This document shows, piece after piece, positions 3,017 to 55,368 of a DNA stretch of 64,000 nucleotides. Made by a program: the position numbers and the translations under genes. Position 1 is the first letter of the stretch. Each line of letters opens with the position of its first letter. Origin of the DNA: Armatimonadota bacterium. Lineage in GTDB: Bacteria > Armatimonadota > Zipacnadia > Zipacnadales > UBA11051. The notes below the pieces were generated by a model that was given only the letters and a program-made list of their open reading frames with translations, was not told the origin of the DNA and made no database searches. The stretch covers positions 1-64,000 of the forward strand of contig JABLXH010000015.1 in NCBI GenBank assembly GCA_013178155.1, in the 5' to 3' direction.

Positions 3017-5939
3017 TCGCTCGCTTCACCTGCGCGGCGATGTCGCGGGTGAAGTCCGGTGGGGTGAGGGGCAGCCTGCCGTCGGCACAGGTCGCGGGCG
3101 TGGTCGCGACGATCCGGCCCCGGCGGGTGTCCCACCACTCGATCCGGTACTCACCGTCGCGCAGGCCCAGCAGCGTCGTCGCCGCGCCGCGCACCGCCTC
3201 CGGCGTCCGGCCGCGCTTGTCATTGAGCCAGTTGCTCTCCTGGTCATGCAGCCATACGAGCGCGAAGTCCTCGGTGCGCAGGCCGTAAGTGTCCATGAGC
3301 GCATAGCGCGGGTCGCGGCAACCGGTGAAGGTGTAGCTGGTAATCTCCGCCCAGTCCTTACCCGAGTTGGTCACCTCGATGATATGCTCGCCGGCGGGGA
3401 TGGCGATCTCGTAGTCGCGGTCGTAGATGTTTTGCCAGATCTGGTACTGCTCACTCCACCTGGCCTCCTTCCACGGTCCCTGGCCCGCGCCGCAGGGAAG
3501 GTCCTGGCTCCAGACCTCCCGCCCGTCCACGGCCACGTGCAGCACCGCGCCCTGGCTGACCTGGTTGACATGCAGCACCAGCTTGCCACCCTGGGGGAAG
3601 GTGGCGCGGAAACGCAGCGGGGCCACCATCTCCGGTTTGGCGGGCGAGAAGACGATGGCGGAGAAGTCACGGGGGCCGGAGCGCGAGCCGTCAGGGTTCA
3701 GCACGATATCACCTTGCGGCTGCTTCTCCCACCACTTGCCCGGAACCAGCCGGATCTCGCCCCAGGGTGTGCCCTCGGGCACTGGTACGCTCACGGGAGT
3801 GAACTCGGCCAGCTCGGGCTTGAACCGCGTCCAGGGCACCGTGTCCACGAAGCGGCGGATGGCCGTGAACTCTTTGTACTGGTTCAGCGGGTGCACATAG
3901 CCATCCCAGTACCAGATGGCGGCAGTGCCGAAACTGCGGTTCATCACCGAGGCCCACAGGCCGTCGTGCAGGCTGGTGCCGGTACCGTTCGGGTCATGAG
4001 TGGTGTCGCTGGTCTTCCAGTCCACGCCGAACTCGCCGACCATGAAGGGCTTGGCCCACTGGGTCGTGTATGAGCGGCTGTCCGCGGCGATGGCCTGGGC
4101 CGTGTGCGGGCGGTTCTCTTCGGTTCCGTAGGAATGAGACTGAGTGTAGTCCATCTCCTCCAGCCGCCAGACTTCATCGTAACCGTAAGTGGTCGTCGTC
4201 AGATGCCGGTTGGGGTCATGCTGCTGGAGATAGCCGGCCATCTCCCGGACCCACGGGGCAGGCGCGACCACCTCGTTCCACAGTTCCCACGACAGAATCT
4301 GCGGGTCCCAGGCGTAACGGGCGATGTAATAGCGCAGGCGCTGCTGGTATAGCTTGCGGGCCTCCGGGTTGGTCCAGAAGTCGGCGGGCCTGGCGCAGGG
4401 GCCGCCATTGGCCTGGTTGTAGGGATTCTCGTCCCAGCAGTTCTCACCGAAGTAGCCTCGGGTATCCATGAGTTCGCCGTGGTAGCCCAGACAGAGCATG
4501 GGGTGGATGCCATTAGCCCGGGCCTGGTCCAGGACCCAGTCCAGGCGGTAGGCATTGTCCAGGCTGTACTTGCCCAGGCCATAGTACGTGCCACTGCCTC
4601 TGCCGGGCAGCCATTCCAGCCCCATGTTCCAGCGGACCAACCAGATGCGGCAATAGTTGCCGCCAGCCTGGCCGAGGGCCGTGAACCATTCCTTGTACTG
4701 TGCCGGAGTGCCCCAGCAGACGTTCTCGCCCACCGCGAAGTACGGGCGACCACTGTCGTACTGCAGGTAGTAGGGCGTGTCCGGGGCGCGGCGGATGAAG
4801 CCTGGAGAAGGGCTCGGGACGCAGGCAAAGCTGGCCGGCGCGGAGGTGACGCGGCCCGTACGGTCGCGCACAGTGACGCGCACCGACCAGTCGCCCGTCT
4901 CGGTCGGCGCGAAGCGCACCTTCCACACCGGCTCGCCAACGGTCCGCAACCGGCTGAAGGGTTCGGCGCCCCACCACTCATAGGCCTGGTAGAAGAAGCC
5001 GGGCACCCGCATCCGCCGCCCGTCTGGACCGGCGAAGCTGGCGGTGACCTCGATGTCCTCGGGGTCAAAGGGGTTGTCGTAGGTGGCGTCGAGGTCGAGC
5101 GTCAACTCCAGCTTGCCGTACCGGGGCACGCGGGCAGAGCTAAGCCGCACGGCACGCAGCGCCAGCGGCTCAGCCGAAGTGAGCGGCACCTCGAGGGACT
5201 TGGCGATGTCTACCACCCGCTTCCGTTCGGCCTCGTAATGAGCGGCGGTGAAGGGCCGTAGCGTCAAGCCGAACTCGTAGGTCTGCCCGGCCTTGAGGTT
5301 GCGTGTACCGCCGACCGCGAACTGGGCCTCGAAGACGTCGCCACCGAACTGGCGGTTGTCCTGGAAGGACACGCCGGACAGCCCCTGGCCGTCCGGTACC
5401 ATCTGCAGCCCGACACCGCTCGGCAGATGCCAGGCGCACCAGTTCATCCGGGCCGTGCTCGTGATATGGTAAGGATCGGGCAGCGTTGCCGGCAGCCGTG
5501 TTTCGGAGATGGCATCCCCATCGTGGATCAAGAACGACCCCTCGCCGGCGTTGCCGGCCACGGGCAGGTCCACCATGACGACGATGAGCTCGGTCTCCAG
5601 GTCGGCGGTGGGGGTGAGGGCCCAGCGGAGGCGGATTTCCTGAGGTGTGGCCTCCAGGCGCTCGACGAAGGCCACCGGCTTACCTTCGGCGGCGAACTCA
5701 CCGCGAAAGACGCGACCCCCGTCCTCACTGGTCTCCTTAACCATCAGGCCGCCGCCGGCATCCTGCACGCCCCAGGCGCCGTTCCAGGCGGGCTTGACCA
5801 CTCGCACGTGCACACCCTGCCCCACCAGCTTGCCCCCGAGGGTGACCTGGTCCAGGCCGCCGTAGGGGTTGACCGTGGCCGCCAGTTGCGCGTGGGCAAC
5901 GGTGGTGGCGAATGACAGCAACCACAGCGCGTGTCGCAT
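3012..5939 (-). CDS. Secreted GH5-like glycoside hydrolase with DUF5060-type N-terminal domain
   Basis: Signal peptide MRHALWLLSFATTVAHA; SWELWNEV (acid/base) and PFMVGEFGVDW (nucleophile); beta-sandwich C-terminus. Confidence 0.75.
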   Translation of the reverse strand: MRHALWLLSFATTVAHAQLAATVNPYGGLDQVTLGGKLVGQGVHVRVVKPAWNGAWGVQDAGGGLMVKETSEDGGRVFRGEFAAEGKPVAFVERLEATPQEIRLRWALTPTADLETELIVVMVDLPVAGNAGEGSFLIHDGDAISETRLPATLPDPYHITSTARMNWCAWHLPSGVGLQMVPDGQGLSGVSFQDNRQFGGDVFEAQFAVGGTRNLKAGQTYEFGLTLRPFTAAHYEAERKRVVDIAKSLEVPLTSAEPLALRAVRLSSARVPRYGKLELTLDLDATYDNPFDPEDIEVTASFAGPDGRRMRVPGFFYQAYEWWGAEPFSRLRTVGEPVWKVRFAPTETGDWSVRVTVRDRTGRVTSAPASFACVPSPSPGFIRRAPDTPYYLQYDSGRPYFAVGENVCWGTPAQYKEWFTALGQAGGNYCRIWLVRWNMGLEWLPGRGSGTYYGLGKYSLDNAYRLDWVLDQARANGIHPMLCLGYHGELMDTRGYFGENCWDENPYNQANGGPCARPADFWTNPEARKLYQQRLRYYIARYAWDPQILSWELWNEVVAPAPWVREMAGYLQQHDPNRHLTTTTYGYDEVWRLEEMDYTQSHSYGTEENRPHTAQAIAADSRSYTTQWAKPFMVGEFGVDWKTSDTTHDPNGTGTSLHDGLWASVMNRSFGTAAIWYWDGYVHPLNQYKEFTAIRRFVDTVPWTRFKPELAEFTPVSVPVPEGTPWGEIRLVPGKWWEKQPQGDIVLNPDGSRSGPRDFSAIVFSPAKPEMVAPLRFRATFPQGGKLVLHVNQVSQGAVLHVAVDGREVWSQDLPCGAGQGPWKEARWSEQYQIWQNIYDRDYEIAIPAGEHIIEVTNSGKDWAEITSYTFTGCRDPRYALMDTYGLRTEDFALVWLHDQESNWLNDKRGRTPEAVRGAATTLLGLRDGEYRIEWWDTRRGRIVATTPATCADGRLPLTPPDFTRDIAAQVKRAR

Positions 5940-6886
5940 CAGGCTCTTCCTCCTTCTGTCGCCTCCCGCCGAACGCGGCGGGCGCGTGCCAGGTAGTCCA
6001 CCCACGGTTCCAACTGGAACTCCGCGATGATGTGCTCCATGGTCACGTCATCCCTGAGCGACGCGATGGTGCAGTGGGCTTCCGGGTAGTGGCTCTCAAT
6101 CTCCAGTCCGGGGCCGTACTTGGCTAGCATCTGCGGGAACTTGTCCTGGTTCTCCGCGAGATGGAAGAGCACCCGGTCGGTGTTGACGACGGCCGACACG
6201 ATGGGCGGCAGGTGCCCCCAGCGCACCTGTTCATCCTCCTGGCCCGTCGTCGCCAGCACCCCGCCGGCCATGTCCACGATGGTGCTGCGGTTGAGGTCAC
6301 AGGCGATCAGGTAGAAGCCGTAGTCACGGACCCACTGCTGCAGCCGTGCACCCCCCATGTACTGCGAGGGCCAGACCACCACGCGGGCTCCGCTGTCAGC
6401 CAGCATCTGCCCGACCTCGGGGTAGTTCAGGTCGAAGCAGACGGCCGCACCGAGACGGCCGAAGTCGGTCTCGAAGGCCGGCGCTTCCGTGCCAGGCAGC
6501 ACCCCGAGTTCCATCTCCAGGATGGTCGGGTATACCTTGTGGTACTTGCCCAGCAGTTGCCCTGCACGATCGTAGAAGGCGACCGTGTTGCGCAGGTGGT
6601 CACCCTGGCGTTCCAGCAGCGGCACGCACAGGTAGGTGCGATGGCGGGCGGCCAGCTCCGCCATACGGTCAGCGGTGGGGCCGGGAATGGTCTCGGCCAT
6701 GTCTGCCCATTGCTCCACCGGCAGACCGGTAACATTGCAGACCTCAGGGAAGGTCACCAGGTCCGGCCGGGCCTGGGCCGCGGTCTCCAGCAATGCGGCC
6801 ATTCGGTCACGGGTGCGCTCGATCCAGTCGGGCCCGGGCTCGACCGGGGGCATGGCGATGGCGGTAAGACGAGTTAGCCGGGCCAA
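5939..6886 (-). CDS. Carbon-nitrogen hydrolase (nitrilase superfamily)
   Basis: E-K-C triad contexts FPEVCN, LGKYHKVYPT, GAAVCFDLNYPEVG. Confidence 0.85.
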   Translation of the reverse strand: MARLTRLTAIAMPPVEPGPDWIERTRDRMAALLETAAQARPDLVTFPEVCNVTGLPVEQWADMAETIPGPTADRMAELAARHRTYLCVPLLERQGDHLRNTVAFYDRAGQLLGKYHKVYPTILEMELGVLPGTEAPAFETDFGRLGAAVCFDLNYPEVGQMLADSGARVVVWPSQYMGGARLQQWVRDYGFYLIACDLNRSTIVDMAGGVLATTGQEDEQVRWGHLPPIVSAVVNTDRVLFHLAENQDKFPQMLAKYGPGLEIESHYPEAHCTIASLRDDVTMEHIIAEFQLEPWVDYLARARRVRREATEGGRA

Positions 6887-6999
6887 GGGCGGCTCCTTTG
6901 CGCTCGATGATCGGGTGTGTGCGTCCGGACGGAGGCCCTACGACCGGCATCAGCGACCGAAACCGCGCCCGGCGGGATGCGCCCCTAACGGCTGAGGTC

Positions 7000-7022
7000 G
7001 CGGTCTGGTGACCGCTCCTACC
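7000..7022. repeat. Hairpin repeat family 1, copy B: GCGGTC-TGGT-GACCGC-TCCTACC
   Basis: Seen directly; intergenic. Confidence 0.75.
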
Positions 7023-7047
7023 GATGCCTCTGTCCGTGACTCTGATC

Positions 7048-7070
7048 GCGGTCTGGTGACCGCTCCTACC
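7048..7070. repeat. Hairpin repeat family 1, copy C: GCGGTC-TGGT-GACCGC-TCCTACC
   Basis: Seen directly; overlaps the araD-like stop codon at 7066-7068. Confidence 0.75.
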
Positions 7071-7761
7071 GGTTGCCTTGCCCGTAGTAGGCATCTTTGC
7101 CGTGTTTGCGGAGGAAGTGCCTGTCCAGTAACGCCTGGCTGATCGGACCGGCGTTCGGGTCGAGGCTCTCTGTCGCCAGAGCCATCTGCGCCACCTGCTC
7201 CAGGATGATGCTATTCTCCACAGCCCTGGCGGGCGACGTCCCCCAGGTGAAGGGACCATGCCCGGCGACCAGGACAGCGGGGATCTGCAGCGGGTCCAAA
7301 CCTGCGAAGGCCGCGACGATGGCCCGGCCCGTCTCCAGCTCGTAGTCCCCCGCCAGGGCCTCGGGGGTCAAGTCCGCTGTCACGGGCACCGACCCGTAGA
7401 AGCTGTCGGCATGAGTGGTCCCGTAGCAGGGCAAGGCACGCCGGGCCTGGGCCCAGGCAGTGGCGTAAGCCGAGTGGGTATGCGCCACGCCGCGGATGGC
7501 CGGAAAGGCACGATACAGCTCCAGATGGGTGGGCGTATCGGAGGAGGGGCGGAGGTCGCCCTCCACGATGTCGCCCTTCAGGTCCACGATGACCATCTGC
7601 TCGGGCTGCATGGCCTCGTAGCTGACCCCGCTGGGCTTGATGGCGACAAGGCCGTTCTCCGGGTCGAGCCCGCTGACATTGCCCCAGGTGAGGATGACCA
7701 GCCCGGAGTCGCGCAGGGCCAGGTTCGCGGCGCAGACGTCGGCTTTGAGTTGGTCGAGCAT
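7066..7761 (-). CDS. araD: L-ribulose-5-phosphate 4-epimerase / class II aldolase family
   Basis: TWGNVSGLD, KPSGVSYEAM, SSDTPTHLELYRAF, GVAHTHSAYATAWAQA, GHGPFTWG. Confidence 0.9.
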   Translation of the reverse strand: MLDQLKADVCAANLALRDSGLVILTWGNVSGLDPENGLVAIKPSGVSYEAMQPEQMVIVDLKGDIVEGDLRPSSDTPTHLELYRAFPAIRGVAHTHSAYATAWAQARRALPCYGTTHADSFYGSVPVTADLTPEALAGDYELETGRAIVAAFAGLDPLQIPAVLVAGHGPFTWGTSPARAVENSIILEQVAQMALATESLDPNAGPISQALLDRHFLRKHGKDAYYGQGNR

Positions 7762-7787
7762 AGGCAGTGACCTCAGGTTGGACGGCG

Positions 7788-7810
7788 GGCCGGACAGGTC
7801 CGGCCTCTCC
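7788..7810. repeat. Hairpin repeat family 2, second copy (GGCCGGA-cagg-TCCGGCCTCTCC)
   Basis: Reverse complement GGAGAGGCCGGA-CCTG-TCCGGCC matches 2949-2976 with a compensatory G-C to A-T change next to the loop. Confidence 0.5.
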
Positions 7811-7872
7811 ACGAGCACGGTGCCATTCTCCCCCTCCCCGTCCAATAGAGAGAGCCGGGGGGGCGAGGTCTG

Positions 7873-8823
7873 TCAGTACGCGTTCAGGCGGTCCGCCTCG
7901 GCGTGCAGCTCAGCCAGCGTCGTGGGCGTCAACTCCAGGCCCAGCTTCTCCGCCAGGGCGTAACCGACCTCGATGGTGGTCTCGACCGCACGCCGGCGGC
8001 CGCTGGTGCGGTCGGTCACGTCCCATGTGTTGTGCGTCGGGTTGTGCAGGTACAGCACCGGGTGGTCGCGACGTATCTGGTCGCGGACGCTGGCCTCACA
8101 GATGGCCATGGTCTCGTCAAAGCTCAGCTCCGCCTCGGCGCGGCAGTCGGTCACGGTCCAGGTGTCCGGCGCTCCGGCCGGGATGGGCTCCAGGCCCCGG
8201 GTGATGGGGAACTCATAGAGGTCGAGTTCGCCCGGTGCCAGACGGGACTTGCTGCTGCAGTGGCGCGTATGCGGGAAGGCGCCCCACCAGAGGTGACCGA
8301 TCTCGTAGCTCGGGTTCCAGCGACCAGGCGCGGTCACGTAGCACTGCCGAACCCCCAGCTCCGCCAGAATGGGGAAGGTGTAGTCATTGGCCTGGGCACA
8401 GCACGCGCCGAAGCTGTCGGCAGCCATGCCCATGGACTGCTCCCAGTCATCCTTGGCGAGGCGGATCGCCTCAAGCTGCTCGTCGTAATCATACCAGGTC
8501 ATGGGCCGAACCCAGTCGTAGTCCTCGGTCGCTCCCGGCGGCCGGTAGCCGCGCACCTGGAAGTGCAGCGCCTGCCAGCAGCCGTTACGCTCCATCTCCT
8601 GCAGGAGCGCTGACTGCCGTCGGGCGACCTCCGGCTCTGAGCAGAAGCCGAGGCAGTGCTCCAGTCCGCGCTCAGCGAACAGCTCGTACAACCCGCGTAC
8701 GGCCCGCTCCGCCACGTCCCAGGTCTGGTCCGGGGAGCCACCGGGCTTCTGCGGTGTCTGGCAGTCCATGAAGTAGAGGAAGAAGAGCTGTCGCCGGTTC
8801 TGCTGAGTCTGGGTGGGGCGCAC
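7873..8823 (-). CDS. Divergent polysaccharide deacetylase-like protein
   Basis: FFLYFMDCQTPQKPGGSPDQTWDVAERAVRGLYELF parallels TWTMDCETVQEE...MAERSMRGYVQAL of the 13090-13965 protein. Probable GTG start at 8823. Confidence 0.5.
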   Translation of the reverse strand: MRPTQTQQNRRQLFFLYFMDCQTPQKPGGSPDQTWDVAERAVRGLYELFAERGLEHCLGFCSEPEVARRQSALLQEMERNGCWQALHFQVRGYRPPGATEDYDWVRPMTWYDYDEQLEAIRLAKDDWEQSMGMAADSFGACCAQANDYTFPILAELGVRQCYVTAPGRWNPSYEIGHLWWGAFPHTRHCSSKSRLAPGELDLYEFPITRGLEPIPAGAPDTWTVTDCRAEAELSFDETMAICEASVRDQIRRDHPVLYLHNPTHNTWDVTDRTSGRRRAVETTIEVGYALAEKLGLELTPTTLAELHAEADRLNAY

Positions 8824-8918
8824 GTTGCGTCTCCGTTCGTTTGCGATGGGACCCCTCCGCCTCGCCGCTCTGAGTTCGCTCGCAAGCTCCGTCGCGGGGG
8901 GCCCGGGGTGAGGGCGGT

Positions 8919-10034
8919 CTACCACGTCCATTGCGGGCTGGCATAGGCCACAACCACGCGGATGGGGGGACCGACGCGGTTGCAGACGTTGACCCCATGG
9001 GCCTCCAGCACGTTCAGGCCCTCCAGCATCGGCCAGGTGAAGCCCGCTTCGGTGCGCTGCCACGGGCCCCCATCCAGTCGGTATTCAACATGACTGAAAA
9101 AGGGCATGCAGTGCTCGAAGGCCACTTCCAGTCGTGCCCCATGGTCGTCCCATGATGGGCGCATCGTCGGACGAATAAGGTTGACGGTGGGGTAGAGGTC
9201 GGCCTGGTGGGAGCTCAACCTCTGCGCCGCCGTCGGCTGGAAGTGCGCGATGAAGCTGGGAGGGCAACGCTGATCGAGCCACGTCCAGCCGTTGATGCTC
9301 AGACGGGCGTAGTAGTCCATGGCCTGGTGGCGGCCGAAACGGGTCAAGTTGCGGCCGATGCGCTCCTCGGTCCACGTCTGGTCGCCGGTGAAATCGCGCA
9401 GATTCTGGATGGTCTCGCCCCTGGGCAACACGAAGTGCGGCTCCTCCTGGACCACGTCCACCTCATCGGCGACCCCTGACATCCATGCCTCGTGGATCTC
9501 CAGGGCGCTCAGCGGCTCCCCTTCCCACTCGTAATGACAGTTGAGATCCGGGTCCAGAACGACCCACTTACCGAAGTCGTTGGACCAGGCCTCGGGCAGG
9601 GCGTGGCCGACATTCCAGAAGGTGTAGTCGCGGGGAAAGCCACTGTCGCGAAGCCCAATCCCGATGCGCCGTGCCGGCAGGCCCAGGGCGGTGCAGCACT
9701 CGGCGAACACCTGGCCGTAGAACCCGCAGGTGAAGGGCTCGCCATCGGCCGCCAGACGCAGGATGTCCAGGGCGTCCTTGACCTCGCCCCACCGCTTCCC
9801 CCAGCCATGATCCCAGCGCCCCCGCACCCAGCGTTTGAGCGCCAGGAGCTGTTCCCATTCGCTGTCATAGTCCGCTACCACGCTGTCGAGATGGAACTCC
9901 TGGCGCAGGGTGGTCAGCCGCTCGCTCAGGGGATCGCCGTAGTCCTCAGGGCTGAAGCGGCCCTCGAAGTCGCGGACATGGTACTCGACAACGCAAAACT
10001 CGCCCGGCGTGCGGCGGATGGTGTCCAGGTCCAT
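8919..10034 (-). CDS. Transglutaminase-like superfamily protein
   Basis: CGFYGQVFAECCTALGLPARRIGIG ... FWNVGHALPEAWSNDFGKWVVLDPDLN: Cys, His and Asp contexts. Confidence 0.75.
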   Translation of the reverse strand: MDLDTIRRTPGEFCVVEYHVRDFEGRFSPEDYGDPLSERLTTLRQEFHLDSVVADYDSEWEQLLALKRWVRGRWDHGWGKRWGEVKDALDILRLAADGEPFTCGFYGQVFAECCTALGLPARRIGIGLRDSGFPRDYTFWNVGHALPEAWSNDFGKWVVLDPDLNCHYEWEGEPLSALEIHEAWMSGVADEVDVVQEEPHFVLPRGETIQNLRDFTGDQTWTEERIGRNLTRFGRHQAMDYYARLSINGWTWLDQRCPPSFIAHFQPTAAQRLSSHQADLYPTVNLIRPTMRPSWDDHGARLEVAFEHCMPFFSHVEYRLDGGPWQRTEAGFTWPMLEGLNVLEAHGVNVCNRVGPPIRVVVAYASPQWTW

Positions 10035-50177: not shown

Positions 50178-50744
50178 ATGCCCAAGGACCTTCTGCTCTT
50201 CGATACGCCGGGCCCAACCAACACGGCGCAGACCCTGGCGGCGGCCGTAGCTCGCGCCGAGGAACTGGGGCTTCGTTATCTGGTCGTGGCCTCCACGACC
50301 GGCGACACGGCCGAGGCCCTCCGCCGCGAAGTTGGCGAACGCGACATGCAGGTCGTCTGCGTCAGCTACCATGCCGAGTTCAGGGGCGGTGATGAGGTGA
50401 TGCCCAGGGAACGCCGGGTTGAGCTCCGGGAACAGGGGATCGAGGTCGTCATCGGCTCACACGCGCTAAGCGGCGTCGAGCGCGCCATCTACAACAAGTT
50501 TGGCACCATCGGGCCCGTGGAGCTGATGGCCCACTGCCTGCGCTGCTTCGGGCAGGGCATCAAGGTCGCCGTTGAGGTGGCGGTGATGGCGGCCGACAGC
50601 GCCGCTGCCCCCACCTCAGAGGACATTGTCGCCATCGGCGGCTCGGGGAAGGGCGCGGACGCCGCGGTGGTCATCCGGGCCGCGCACCAGAACAACTTCT
50701 TCGACCTGCGGGTCCGCGAGATCATCGCCATGGTGCGCGGCTAA
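50178..50744 (+). CDS. Stand-alone pyruvate-kinase alpha/beta (C-terminal) domain-like protein
   Basis: TNTAQTLAAAVARAEELGLRYLVVASTTGDTAEALRRE...VAIGGSGKGADAAVVIRAAHQNNFFDLRVREIIAM. Confidence 0.7.
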   Translation: MPKDLLLFDTPGPTNTAQTLAAAVARAEELGLRYLVVASTTGDTAEALRREVGERDMQVVCVSYHAEFRGGDEVMPRERRVELREQGIEVVIGSHALSGVERAIYNKFGTIGPVELMAHCLRCFGQGIKVAVEVAVMAADSAAAPTSEDIVAIGGSGKGADAAVVIRAAHQNNFFDLRVREIIAMVRG

Positions 50745-51874
50745 CGGCCGATGGGGTATGTCCCCACCTTCCGCAGTTCGTCTATCGCCGCCAGGTAGTT
50801 CTCTGCCTTGGCGCTGACGGTCACCGAGTGCGAAGTCCCCAGAATGAGGCCACCGCCCGGGGCGCAGCCGTAGATCGTCTCCCGCACTTGCTGGCGGATC
50901 TCCTCCGGGGTTCCTACTACCATCGTATGGGTCGAGAACCCGCCCCACAAGGCCAGCCGATGGCCCCAGGTGCGGCGCAGGCCCACGATGTCCTCCTCGG
51001 GCTGGATGGCCTGGTAGCAGTCAATGCCCGCCTCAATCATCTGATCAATGAGCAAGCGGTTGTCACCACAGGCATGCCATAACACGGGCACGCCGTGGCG
51101 GTGCACTCGCTCGCACAGAATCCTGATCGAAGGCATGTGGACTTCGCGGAAGGTCTTCGGCGACATGAAGGGGCCGTGGTTGTGGCCAAAATCCTCACCG
51201 ATGGCGACGTTGTCGCAGCCCCGCTCAAAGTACATGCTGAAGTCGGTAGCCTCTGCGCCGCGCAAGCGCTCCTCGCGCACCTTGTCTGGCTCCTCAGCCA
51301 GTCGCAGCATCATCGGCTCCCAGTCCAGCGCTGAGGGGTAGCCACAGGCCAGCCGCCGGCCGGGACGCGCCACGACGTAGTGGGTCGCCCCTAGCTCCTG
51401 CAGCGCGTAGTCAATGATCTCCCATTCGGACTCGTCCACCTCCGCCGGCGGCTCCCACAGGTCCGGGGCCGGCTGGGGGTCCAGGCCCCCGAGCTGGAAG
51501 AGCATCAGGTCATGGGTCAGGGCGCTGTAGCGATACAGGTTGCCGCGCCAGTCGCGCCAGGTCTCGTGGTCCAGTTGCTGCAGCTTCTCGGGCTGGAAGC
51601 CCTTCGGGTAGGCCAGGTTGACGGCCAGGCCGTCCTGGTTGAACTCGCGGGCGAAGTCCACGATGTCGCGCTTCTGGCTGGCCACGACCTCGTCGCGCCC
51701 GCCGTCCCATAGCGCCTGCAGCTCCTTGAGCTTGGCCCGCCAGAAGGTCGGCCGACCCAGCAGGTCCTCGATCATGGTGTAGTCTATGGCGAACTCCATC
51801 ATCGGAACGATGTCGGGTTCCTCGTGCCGCAGGGCCGCTGCCACTCGATCCTTGGATGTCATGGTGCAGGTCAC
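50741..51874 (-). CDS. Uroporphyrinogen-decarboxylase-family (URO-D) methyltransferase-like protein
   Basis: TSKDRVAAALRHEEPDIVPMMEF; VLWHACGDNRLLIDQMIEAGIDCYQAIQP (HxCG). Confidence 0.82.
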   Translation of the reverse strand: MTCTMTSKDRVAAALRHEEPDIVPMMEFAIDYTMIEDLLGRPTFWRAKLKELQALWDGGRDEVVASQKRDIVDFAREFNQDGLAVNLAYPKGFQPEKLQQLDHETWRDWRGNLYRYSALTHDLMLFQLGGLDPQPAPDLWEPPAEVDESEWEIIDYALQELGATHYVVARPGRRLACGYPSALDWEPMMLRLAEEPDKVREERLRGAEATDFSMYFERGCDNVAIGEDFGHNHGPFMSPKTFREVHMPSIRILCERVHRHGVPVLWHACGDNRLLIDQMIEAGIDCYQAIQPEEDIVGLRRTWGHRLALWGGFSTHTMVVGTPEEIRQQVRETIYGCAPGGGLILGTSHSVTVSAKAENYLAAIDELRKVGTYPIGR

Positions 51875-53349
51875 CTCAGCCGGGTTGTGACGATACGGTC
51901 ATCGCCATGGTGGTCGAGGACGCAGGTCTGCACCCAGAGCTCCTCGCCGGGGATCTCAGTCATCTGCAAGGTCACGTCAGCACTGCTCAGTCCACGCACC
52001 GGCGCGATGGCATGACCCAGTTGGCGGGTCAAGAGCGTCACCGGCCGGTCGAAGGTCGCTCGCGGAGCGGCGGCGCGTTCCGGGTTGCCGTTGTAGACCA
52101 CCACCAGTGCGCGCTCGATGTCGAAGACGCCGCGGTTCCGCAGCCGGACCCGAAGCGCCGGCTGGGGACTCCGAGTCCCTGCCTGGCGTTCCGCCAGGAG
52201 GTGGCATCCTGCCACCTCGACGCGCAGGCTCTGGGCGAGTTCGGTGGGGCGCAGCTTCACGGCTGCTGCCGCGTCCAGTATGCCCCAGCCCAGCTTGCTG
52301 TCCCACTCCTGGCTCAGGCCCGTAGGGAAAGACTTCGGTCGGTCTGTGCGTTCCGCGCTGGACCGGCTGGAACCAGTCGCTCGCGTACCATCGCGCCCTC
52401 CGGCGCGGCCGGAAGCCATGCCTGCCGGACCATGCCGTGCAGCGGTGTTCCGGAGCACCTGCCGTAGCTGGTCGTTGGTCAGCTTCGGGAAACGCGACCA
52501 CACCAGCGCCGCGACACCGCCGGCGAAGCCTGCAGCCATGCAACCGCCCTCCGAGGCCACGTACTTGCCGTTGCCGCCGGTGGACCACACGCGGTCCAGT
52601 TCGTCGCCAGTGCCCCTGTCACCAGCCGGAGCCGCCACCTCAACGTAGTCGGCATCGGGGGCGATATCGGCAGGGCCCCCGTGGCGGCTGCTGGAGCCCA
52701 CCGCCACCACGCAGTCCAGGGCTGTGGTGGCGAAAGCCGCGCGCCGGCCACGGTTGTCTATGACCCCGCAGCAGATGAGGCAGCCCGCGTCATAGGCCGC
52801 CTCCAGCGCCTGCCGCAAGCGAGGGTTGTCCACCGGGGCGCCGAAGTCCGTCCCACGGTAGAAGAGCGGCACCGGCGAAGCGGTCCGTCCATGGCTGATG
52901 AAGCCATGCGGCATGACCAGCACCTGTGCCCCGTGCTCGACTGCGTACTCGATGCCTCGCGCCCAGTTGTCCTTGGGCGCACGGTAGCCCACCCGCACCG
53001 CCATGACGCGGCACTCCGGCGCACAGGCGATGACTTCGCCGACGATGAAGGAGTGGTGGTCGCGGTAGTAGGGGGTGTCTGCTCCCGGCCCCGCAGGCTC
53101 CAGGGTGGCATCGTCGTCCGCGCAGTCCCAGCCGTGCAAGTCGCCCCGGCGCGGCCGCGGGTTCACCCACAGGTGCCCGGCATGGTGTGGGTGCGGGTTG
53201 TAGCCCAGGTCAATGACCGCGACGACCACATCGGGGTTGCCCCGGATGACCCTATGGGCCTGCGGCACCCGCAGCTGCCGCAGGGGCCAGCCATAGGGCG
53301 TGCGGTGGAGAGTATCCAGGTGCAGGCTGGGGCTCAACTTGCCGCCCAT
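51871..53349 (-). CDS. S8 subtilase-family protein with Cys at the nucleophile position
   Basis: VVVAVIDLGYNPHPHHAGHL (Asp), DHHSFIVGEVIA (His), ASEGGCMAAGFAGGVAALVWSRFPKLTNDQLRQVLRNTA (Cys for Ser). No signal peptide apparent. Confidence 0.8.
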   Translation of the reverse strand: MGGKLSPSLHLDTLHRTPYGWPLRQLRVPQAHRVIRGNPDVVVAVIDLGYNPHPHHAGHLWVNPRPRRGDLHGWDCADDDATLEPAGPGADTPYYRDHHSFIVGEVIACAPECRVMAVRVGYRAPKDNWARGIEYAVEHGAQVLVMPHGFISHGRTASPVPLFYRGTDFGAPVDNPRLRQALEAAYDAGCLICCGVIDNRGRRAAFATTALDCVVAVGSSSRHGGPADIAPDADYVEVAAPAGDRGTGDELDRVWSTGGNGKYVASEGGCMAAGFAGGVAALVWSRFPKLTNDQLRQVLRNTAARHGPAGMASGRAGGRDGTRATGSSRSSAERTDRPKSFPTGLSQEWDSKLGWGILDAAAAVKLRPTELAQSLRVEVAGCHLLAERQAGTRSPQPALRVRLRNRGVFDIERALVVVYNGNPERAAAPRATFDRPVTLLTRQLGHAIAPVRGLSSADVTLQMTEIPGEELWVQTCVLDHHGDDRIVTTRLR

Positions 53350-54374
53350 CAGCCGTACACCCCAAACTCGGCGATGGCGTCCGCCATCGCGCGGACGTTC
53401 TCGTCCTTCATGTCGGCGGTCAGGCTGTTGGAGGAGGAGATGATGTAGCCACCTCCTGCGCCGATGTGCTCGATGCGGTCGCGGACCTGCTCCCGGATGT
53501 CATGGGGCTGCTTGTGCACGAGATCATCCATGAAGATGTTGCCCACCAGGCAAAGGCGGTCGCCATACCGGGCCTTGACCGCGTTGATGTCCATTACGTC
53601 GGGCTGGAGGGGATGAATGGCGGCCTGTCCCAGTTGCAGCCAGTCCTCCAGGATGGGCGTCATGTCTCCGTCGCTGTGGGTGATCAGCGGCAGCTCCAGC
53701 GCCGCCGCGGCGCGTTGCTGTACCGGCAGCACGACCTCCCGGTAGAAGGCTGGCGAGAACATGGGGCCGTTGTTGAAGGCCACGTCATCGAAAGCCCAGA
53801 AGACATCGAAGCCGATCTCGGCCAGCCGCGGCCCCAGGCGGATGGTCCAGTCGGCGTAACGTTCCATGATTTCGACAATCAGCTCCGGGTCATCCGCCAT
53901 GGCGTAGGAGAAAGCTTCCAGGCCCATGCTCATCAGTGTGGCGCCGATGCCCAGGCGGATGCAGGCAATGGCGCAGAAGTCCTCCTTGTGGGCGATGAAC
54001 TCCCGCGCGCTGTCCAGGAAGCCCGGGGCGTCCATATCCGGAAACTGCATCTTCGCCAGGTCGTCGCGGGTGTGGATAAGCCCCTCACCGACGACCACGA
54101 CGCCCTGCAGGCTGGTGCGACCCGCGTAGACGGGCGCGAAGGCATTGTAGTTGATGTTGTCCTTGCCGAGCGCCCGGCAGACCTTCTTCTGCTGCTCGGC
54201 CAGGAACGCGCCCGAGGCCACGGGCGTGCCGTCCGGAGCGATGTCCCAGTTCACCTCAATCTTCTCTCCGCACAGCCGGGTCGCCAGCTCGTCGCTGACG
54301 ATGCCCTCAATCCAGGGCACGCGGTCCGGGATCTCACGCCGCAAGGCAGCCAACACGCGCTCTCGTGAGGTCAT
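53349..54374 (-). CDS. URO-D family protein
   Basis: TSRERVLAALRREIPDRVPWIEG; LITHSDGDMTPILEDWLQLGQAAIHPLQP. Confidence 0.8.
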   Translation of the reverse strand: MTSRERVLAALRREIPDRVPWIEGIVSDELATRLCGEKIEVNWDIAPDGTPVASGAFLAEQQKKVCRALGKDNINYNAFAPVYAGRTSLQGVVVVGEGLIHTRDDLAKMQFPDMDAPGFLDSAREFIAHKEDFCAIACIRLGIGATLMSMGLEAFSYAMADDPELIVEIMERYADWTIRLGPRLAEIGFDVFWAFDDVAFNNGPMFSPAFYREVVLPVQQRAAAALELPLITHSDGDMTPILEDWLQLGQAAIHPLQPDVMDINAVKARYGDRLCLVGNIFMDDLVHKQPHDIREQVRDRIEHIGAGGGYIISSSNSLTADMKDENVRAMADAIAEFGVYG

Positions 54375-54411: not shown

Positions 54412-55368
54412 CTAGCGGCACTCCACGCGCTGACCCGTAGCTGCCGCCTCCGTGGCCCACAAGGCCAGCCGATTGGCTCGCAGCGACGCTTCCTGCGGGA
54501 TCAGGTCGCCCCCGGCCAGCCAGTCGGCGACCACGGACGTCGCCGGTGGCAGCGTCTCGAGTACCTGGCCCTCACCGCTCGGGTCCGTGACGGTGACGCG
54601 GCTGGCGGTCATATCGAGGTCGGCAAAGCCCCGCGTACCGGCCACAGTGACGCGGTAGTCCGATCCCCGGGTGTCTGGCAACATGCGCTGGCCCTCGCAG
54701 ACCGCAGCGGCACCCTCCAGCTCACAGAAGACACTGGCATGATCGCGCAGGTGCCGCTCGTCGGGGTAGCCCAGGTTGCCGGTGACGGCCGATACGGCGA
54801 CCGTCTTCTGACCCGTAAGCCATTCGACGTAGTCCAGGCCGTGGATCAGCAGGTCCAGGAAGAGCCCGCCAGAACGCCGCACATCGAGAAACCAGGGGGG
54901 TCGCGCGGCGCGCTTGAGCTGAACAGCCATGCGCACATGGACGAACGCCGGCGTACCGAGACGCCCTGACTGCACCACGCCTCGCAACCCGGCCCAGAGG
55001 GGATGGCCACGGAGGGTCAGGAGATTCAGTAGCTTGCGACCGGAAGCGGCGACTGCCTCCTCCACGGCTCGCTGCTGGTCCCAGGTGACGGCCAGGGGCT
55101 TGTCGCAGACGACGTCACAGCCGGCGTGCAGGGCGGCCACGATCGTCTCGGCTCGCAGGTCGTTTTCATTGGCGACGGCCACCAGGTCGGGCTGGAAACG
55201 TTGTAAGAGTTCCTGGTAGCCCACCACCACCGGGCAGCCGAACTGCTCGGCGGCTTGAGCGGCCTGGTCGGCACGCACCGCGGCGCCCACGATCTCCAGT
55301 TGTTGCCCGCGGAGGGCGGTGATCTCGCTGATGTGGGTCTCGCCGCCGACGATCCCGACCCGTCGCAT
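54412..55368 (-). CDS. Gfo/Idh/MocA-family oxidoreductase
   Basis: RRVGIVGGETHISEI; DVVCDKPLAVTWDQQRAV; start MRRVGIVGG at 55368. Confidence 0.85.
   Translation of the reverse strand: MRRVGIVGGETHISEITALRGQQLEIVGAAVRADQAAQAAEQFGCPVVVGYQELLQRFQPDLVAVANENDLRAETIVAALHAGCDVVCDKPLAVTWDQQRAVEEAVAASGRKLLNLLTLRGHPLWAGLRGVVQSGRLGTPAFVHVRMAVQLKRAARPPWFLDVRRSGGLFLDLLIHGLDYVEWLTGQKTVAVSAVTGNLGYPDERHLRDHASVFCELEGAAAVCEGQRMLPDTRGSDYRVTVAGTRGFADLDMTASRVTVTDPSGEGQVLETLPPATSVVADWLAGGDLIPQEASLRANRLALWATEAAATGQRVECR

Follow-up and report, generated by a model that had tools for sequence, protein, structure and literature searches.

A subtilase family with invariant cysteine and glycine at the Ser221 and Pro225 positions, encoded beside metabolic genes in Armatimonadota and other phyla

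In the 64,000-nucleotide stretch of DNA analysed here (the window; Armatimonadota bacterium, GenBank assembly GCA_013178155.1, contig JABLXH010000015.1, positions 1 to 64,000), an open reading frame (ORF) on the minus strand, 53349–51871, encodes a 492-amino-acid protein of the subtilase fold in which the nucleophilic serine is replaced by cysteine and the proline at subtilisin position 225 by glycine. The same pair of residues was found throughout a small family of homologues, and we consider it probable, at roughly 0.58, that these proteins are natural thiol-subtilases, that is, catalytic thiol enzymes of either kind, hydrolase or acyltransferase/ligase, the ligase being included in that figure.

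Cysteine at the nucleophile position of a subtilase

The protein (minus strand, 51871..53349) matched Peptidase_S8 (PF00082) with an E-value of 2.4e-14 and 53.8 bits, compared with a gathering score of 21.8, and phmmer searches against PDB chains led to subtilisins, the top entry being 1gns, which itself has Cys at position 221. In the alignment of the family profile with subtilisins, the Asp, His, Asn155 and Cys221 columns were in register, with Asp47, His98, Asn199 and Cys270 corresponding to subtilisin Asp32, His64, Asn155 and Ser221, respectively, and Gly274 to Pro225. Both approaches placed Cys270 on Ser/Cys221, and no other Ser aligned at the nucleophile site, in agreement with a preliminary description of this DNA, which had recognized the Cys, the Gly at the Pro225 position and the retained Asp motif and first His. 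The same description located the Cys codon correctly, as TGC at 52540..52542, although the codon lies on the minus strand (it reads GCA on the plus strand) and not on the plus strand as noted; the Gly274 codon occupies 52528..52530, also on the minus strand. The oxyanion Asn, the context of which had appeared doubtful, is now settled: Asn199, within the motif DNRGRR, pairs with Asn155. Instead of the Ser-containing GTSMAxP, every family member reads GGCMAxG, and the triad has lost neither Asp nor His, its nucleophile being Cys.

An AlphaFold2 (AF2) model built from 12 orthologues (mean predicted local distance difference test, pLDDT, 69; predicted template modelling score, pTM, 0.77) was assigned by Foldseek to the subtilisin fold, with an E-value of 2e-16 and template modelling scores (TMt) of 0.7–0.81 for most matches. 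As had been noticed there, the N-terminus coincides with the start of the mature catalytic domain, without an I9 propeptide. The reported lack of a signal peptide holds for most family members, one of which (L021) nevertheless seems from its sequence to carry one.

Conservation of the Cys/Gly pair

Whole-genome searches covered first 61 relatives and subsequently 291 genomes from the phylum. Close relatives, 51–65% identical over the whole protein, are present in four genomes (G002, G004, G025 and G055), and fragments in two more (G005 and G035). A scan of GTDB contigs resulted in 12 loci, one of its two patterns containing GGCMA and thus favouring Cys. Searches unbiased towards Cys were run over 393 genomes of Planctomycetota, 390 of Verrucomicrobiota (twice, with different queries) and 350 of the archaeal phylum of locus L023; they yielded one further member (G1061), with both Cys and Gly, the remaining matches being exclusively ordinary GTS subtilases with 29–37% identity. 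A wide gap separates the full-length family members, with E-values below 1e-100, from all other matches.

The motif GGCMAxGF was found in all 11 full-length rows and in G1061, and 84 positions, including D47, H98, N199, G268, G269, C270 and G274, are unchanging across the 11 rows. Every other subtilase compared, paralogues in the same genome included, has GTS as the nucleophile motif and mostly Pro at 225. A cysteine confined to the window copy among Ser-bearing homologues, the outcome against which the preliminary description had cautioned, was not observed. The Cys codon is either TGC or TGT, and the flanking codons vary between members. For the two nearest relatives (L026 and L047), the nonsynonymous (dN) and synonymous (dS) substitution rates were 0.14 and 0.61, respectively (dN/dS of about 0.23), which indicates purifying selection. 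When 26 catalytic domains were placed in a tree, the Cys rows formed one group with 100/100 support and a long stem, unmixed with the Ser rows, indicating that the Cys clade has one origin within this tree.

Proposed activity

In our best reading, the thiol-subtilases act on a specific, mostly intracellular substrate. Directly after the oxyanion Asn stands an invariant RGRR (NRGRR), and a family-specific insert, ending in FYxGTDFxYPxDN, separates the PHG segment (subtilisin 125–127, the wall of the S1 pocket) from the next helix. Since residues 156 and 166 of subtilisin shape its S1 pocket, that of the family is predicted to be basic and narrow, suited to an acidic group. Cys270, activated by His98 and Asp47, would attack the carbonyl of the substrate, which would probably be acidic given the invariant NRGRR and the insert after PHG. 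The resulting thioester acyl-enzyme would be stabilized by Asn199, and either water or an amine would receive the acyl group, within the pathway of the neighbouring Gfo/Idh/MocA, UroD-like, DegT and NodB-like enzymes. Gly274 would make room for the larger sulfur, like the small residues at 225 in engineered ligases. In S221C subtilisin, P225A relieves the crowding caused by the sulfur and restores activity, which gave rise to subtiligase, and in peptiligase, synthesis was better with Asn, Asp, Ser, Cys or Gly at 225 than with Ala (PMC7921005). The invariant Gly at this position may be regarded as a striking parallel with the engineered ligases, short of proof for ligation. Simple decay into a pseudoenzyme is made less likely by the retention of the complete catalytic set. 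The earlier suggestion of a thiol-subtilase acyltransferase/ligase or a binding protein is borne out in part, namely with respect to the conserved Cys, Gly, Asp, His and Asn and the missing propeptide; the protein may be a ligase, a hydrolase or a binder.

Gene neighbourhood

The preliminary description overlooked that the gene lies in an operon and has a conserved metabolic neighbourhood, not one of secreted digestive proteases. In the window, genes for a Gfo/Idh/MocA-type oxidoreductase, a UroD-like protein, the Cys-subtilase and a second UroD-like protein follow each other in this order on the minus strand. The oxidoreductase gene (54412..55368), for which the start MRRVGIVGG was picked by homology, is the upstream gene of the run. 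The stop codon of the first UroD-like gene (53349..54374) overlaps the start of the subtilase gene (TGATG); the same protein group occurs at other family loci, and a 92% identical copy is present in genome G016. The ATG of the second UroD-like gene (50741..51862) follows the subtilase stop codon at a distance of 8 bases.

At the other loci, genes were mapped with a simple ORF chooser rather than taken from annotated records. Across loci, the recurring groups are Gfo (7), NodB-like deacetylase (7), UroD-like (4), DegT aminotransferase (3, plus L049) and M14-like (3), and some loci also contain isochorismatase-like, amidohydrolase, arginase-family and AraC genes. A run of AraC, Gfo/Idh/MocA, DegT, UroD-like and NodB-like genes recurs in Armatimonadota and in Verrucomicrobiota/Kiritimatiellota, with or without the Cys-subtilase. 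The M14-like protein, which has a weak match to Pfam M14 (1e-6) and no obvious signal peptide, is encoded directly upstream of the Cys-subtilase at three loci (L017, 8824-9984; L019, 2-1159; L028, 461-1606). NodB (57% identity or more) was found in 7 of the 61 relatives, the Cys-subtilase in 6 and both in 5 (hypergeometric test, P = 2e-5, kinship ignored). NodB is not an absolute partner, G016 and G006 carrying NodB with no Cys-subtilase found and the NodB of G055 reaching only 37% identity, and DegT was rejected as a family-specific marker, being widespread in the relatives (20 of 51). In genome G000, the NodB gene is on a separate contig, beside an isochorismatase-like gene. The Cys-subtilase is thus accessory to a metabolic cluster that is mobile and whose proteins mostly look cytosolic.

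Arguments against catalysis and alternative explanations

Several observations weigh against a catalytic thiol enzyme. The invariance of Cys among the rows from the contig scan was partly selected by the GGCMA pattern. The AF2 confidence is moderate, with pLDDT below 50 at residues 197-213 and 227-246 (the S1 region), Gly stands at the Thr220 position, and several segments of the substrate site are altered past recognition. Furthermore, G016 has the AraC, Gfo, DegT, UroD and NodB genes without the subtilase (L075, G016:C9:327000-345000, 4651-9955), and therefore the pathway does not always need the Cys-subtilase.

The last observation would also fit a pseudoprotease, in which the fold serves the enzymes of the cluster as a ligand sensor or scaffold, with a Cys that has a structural role, is redox-active or binds metal. 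Such a role has precedents among subtilases in CspA and CspC of C. difficile and is compatible with the strong conservation outside the active site; however, Asp, His and the oxyanion Asn are all invariant, whereas CspC has lost two triad residues, and the residue that has replaced Pro225 alongside leaves space for the sulfur. We regard this explanation as rather unlikely, although it fares best among the alternatives.

Less probable again is a special case of the thiol-subtilase, a dedicated natural peptide ligase or acyltransferase that favours aminolysis over hydrolysis and links an acyl donor supplied by the cluster with an amine, for example an amino sugar. The combination of Cys with Gly at 225 corresponds to the double change made by engineers, Gly being one of the better residues at that position, and the DegT aminotransferase and NodB-like deacetylase nearby could make or expose an amine. 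Nevertheless, neither an acyl donor nor a precursor peptide was identified, the S221C/P225A ligases use activated esters, no source of which is visible, and the isochorismatase-like, amidohydrolase, arginase-family and M14 neighbours make the surroundings look at least as catabolic. Finally, the presence of Cys in every relative, across independent assemblies, within one clade and with both Cys codons refutes drift, a sequencing error or a misaligned nucleophile column.

Distribution and further features of the protein

Members of the family are rare, occur as single copies and are scattered over Armatimonadota, Planctomycetota, Verrucomicrobiota/Kiritimatiellota and one Bathyarchaeota metagenome-assembled genome (MAG), and all named records found are MAGs. 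The Bathyarchaeota member (L023) was the only one among the 350 genomes of its archaeal phylum, and the phylum search for another locus (L022), labelled 'Paceibacterota', drew on the same set of genomes as the Verrucomicrobiota search; in both cases, the label may be due to binning errors or to gene transfer. Locus L027 (10001-10615) holds only a 3' fragment, which begins shortly ahead of the Cys motif; no homologous N-terminus precedes it, and the locus is a gene remnant or an assembly junction. At L007 (1459-1671) and L014, transposase-like sequence adjoins the start of the Cys-subtilase gene, and each of the two contigs (G035:C100 and C161) runs out within the gene, after an identical 57 residues, which suggests an assembly break caused by a repeat. 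No relatives were found in the viral contigs and plasmids searched, PADLOC models of anti-phage defence matched neither the Cys-subtilase nor six cluster proteins, and PHROGs gave nothing beyond a weak generic protease match.

The C-terminal 127 residues (366-492; 51874..52254, minus strand) form an Ig/Fn3-type beta-sandwich modelled with a pLDDT of 90, for which the Pfam search returned no family and no identity closer than a generic Ig/Fn3-like sandwich was obtained. A low-complexity, in-frame insert of 42 residues (about 305-346; 52312..52437, minus strand) is specific to the window copy and absent from all relatives; occurring once in the genome, it is not a repeat element. A second invariant cysteine, C113 (PxC; codon at 53013-53011), lies outside the active-site motifs.

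Comparison with known subtilases

Thiol-subtilisins are known as laboratory constructs, and no natural family of Cys subtilases was found described in the open literature, most subscription journals being outside this coverage. Conservation of the paired change in a natural family would demonstrate that the subtilisin fold tolerates the switch from Ser to Cys. Ligase design would gain a starting point from nature, and attention would be drawn to a metabolic cluster of uncultured phyla that has yet to be described. Should its members be ligases, evolution would have reached the same solution as subtiligase, Cys with a small residue at 225, and used it in a conserved pathway.

The best NCBIfam match of the Cys-subtilase is to the mycosins (TIGR03921); at 97 bits, it falls far under the curated cut-off of 278.75, which places the protein outside the mycosins, and no type VII secretion genes were noted nearby. 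With the subtilisins (PF00082), the family has in common the fold and the order of the Asp, His, oxyanion Asn and nucleophile motifs. It differs from them in having Cys in place of Ser221 and Gly in place of Thr220 and Pro225, an insert after the S1-wall segment and an additional C-terminal beta-sandwich, in lacking the I9 propeptide and mostly the signal peptide, and in being encoded in a metabolic operon. Like CspA and CspC, the family comprises non-Ser subtilases with a specialized role; unlike these pseudoproteases, which have lost two triad residues (in CspC, Ser is replaced by Gly, G485, and His by Thr, T170), it has a complete triad with Cys. The Cys nucleophile and the small residue at 225 are common to the family and to the engineered S221C ligases subtiligase, peptiligase and omniligase; these ligases, however, were engineered from a secreted protease, whereas the Cys family is natural and only about 20% identical to them in sequence.
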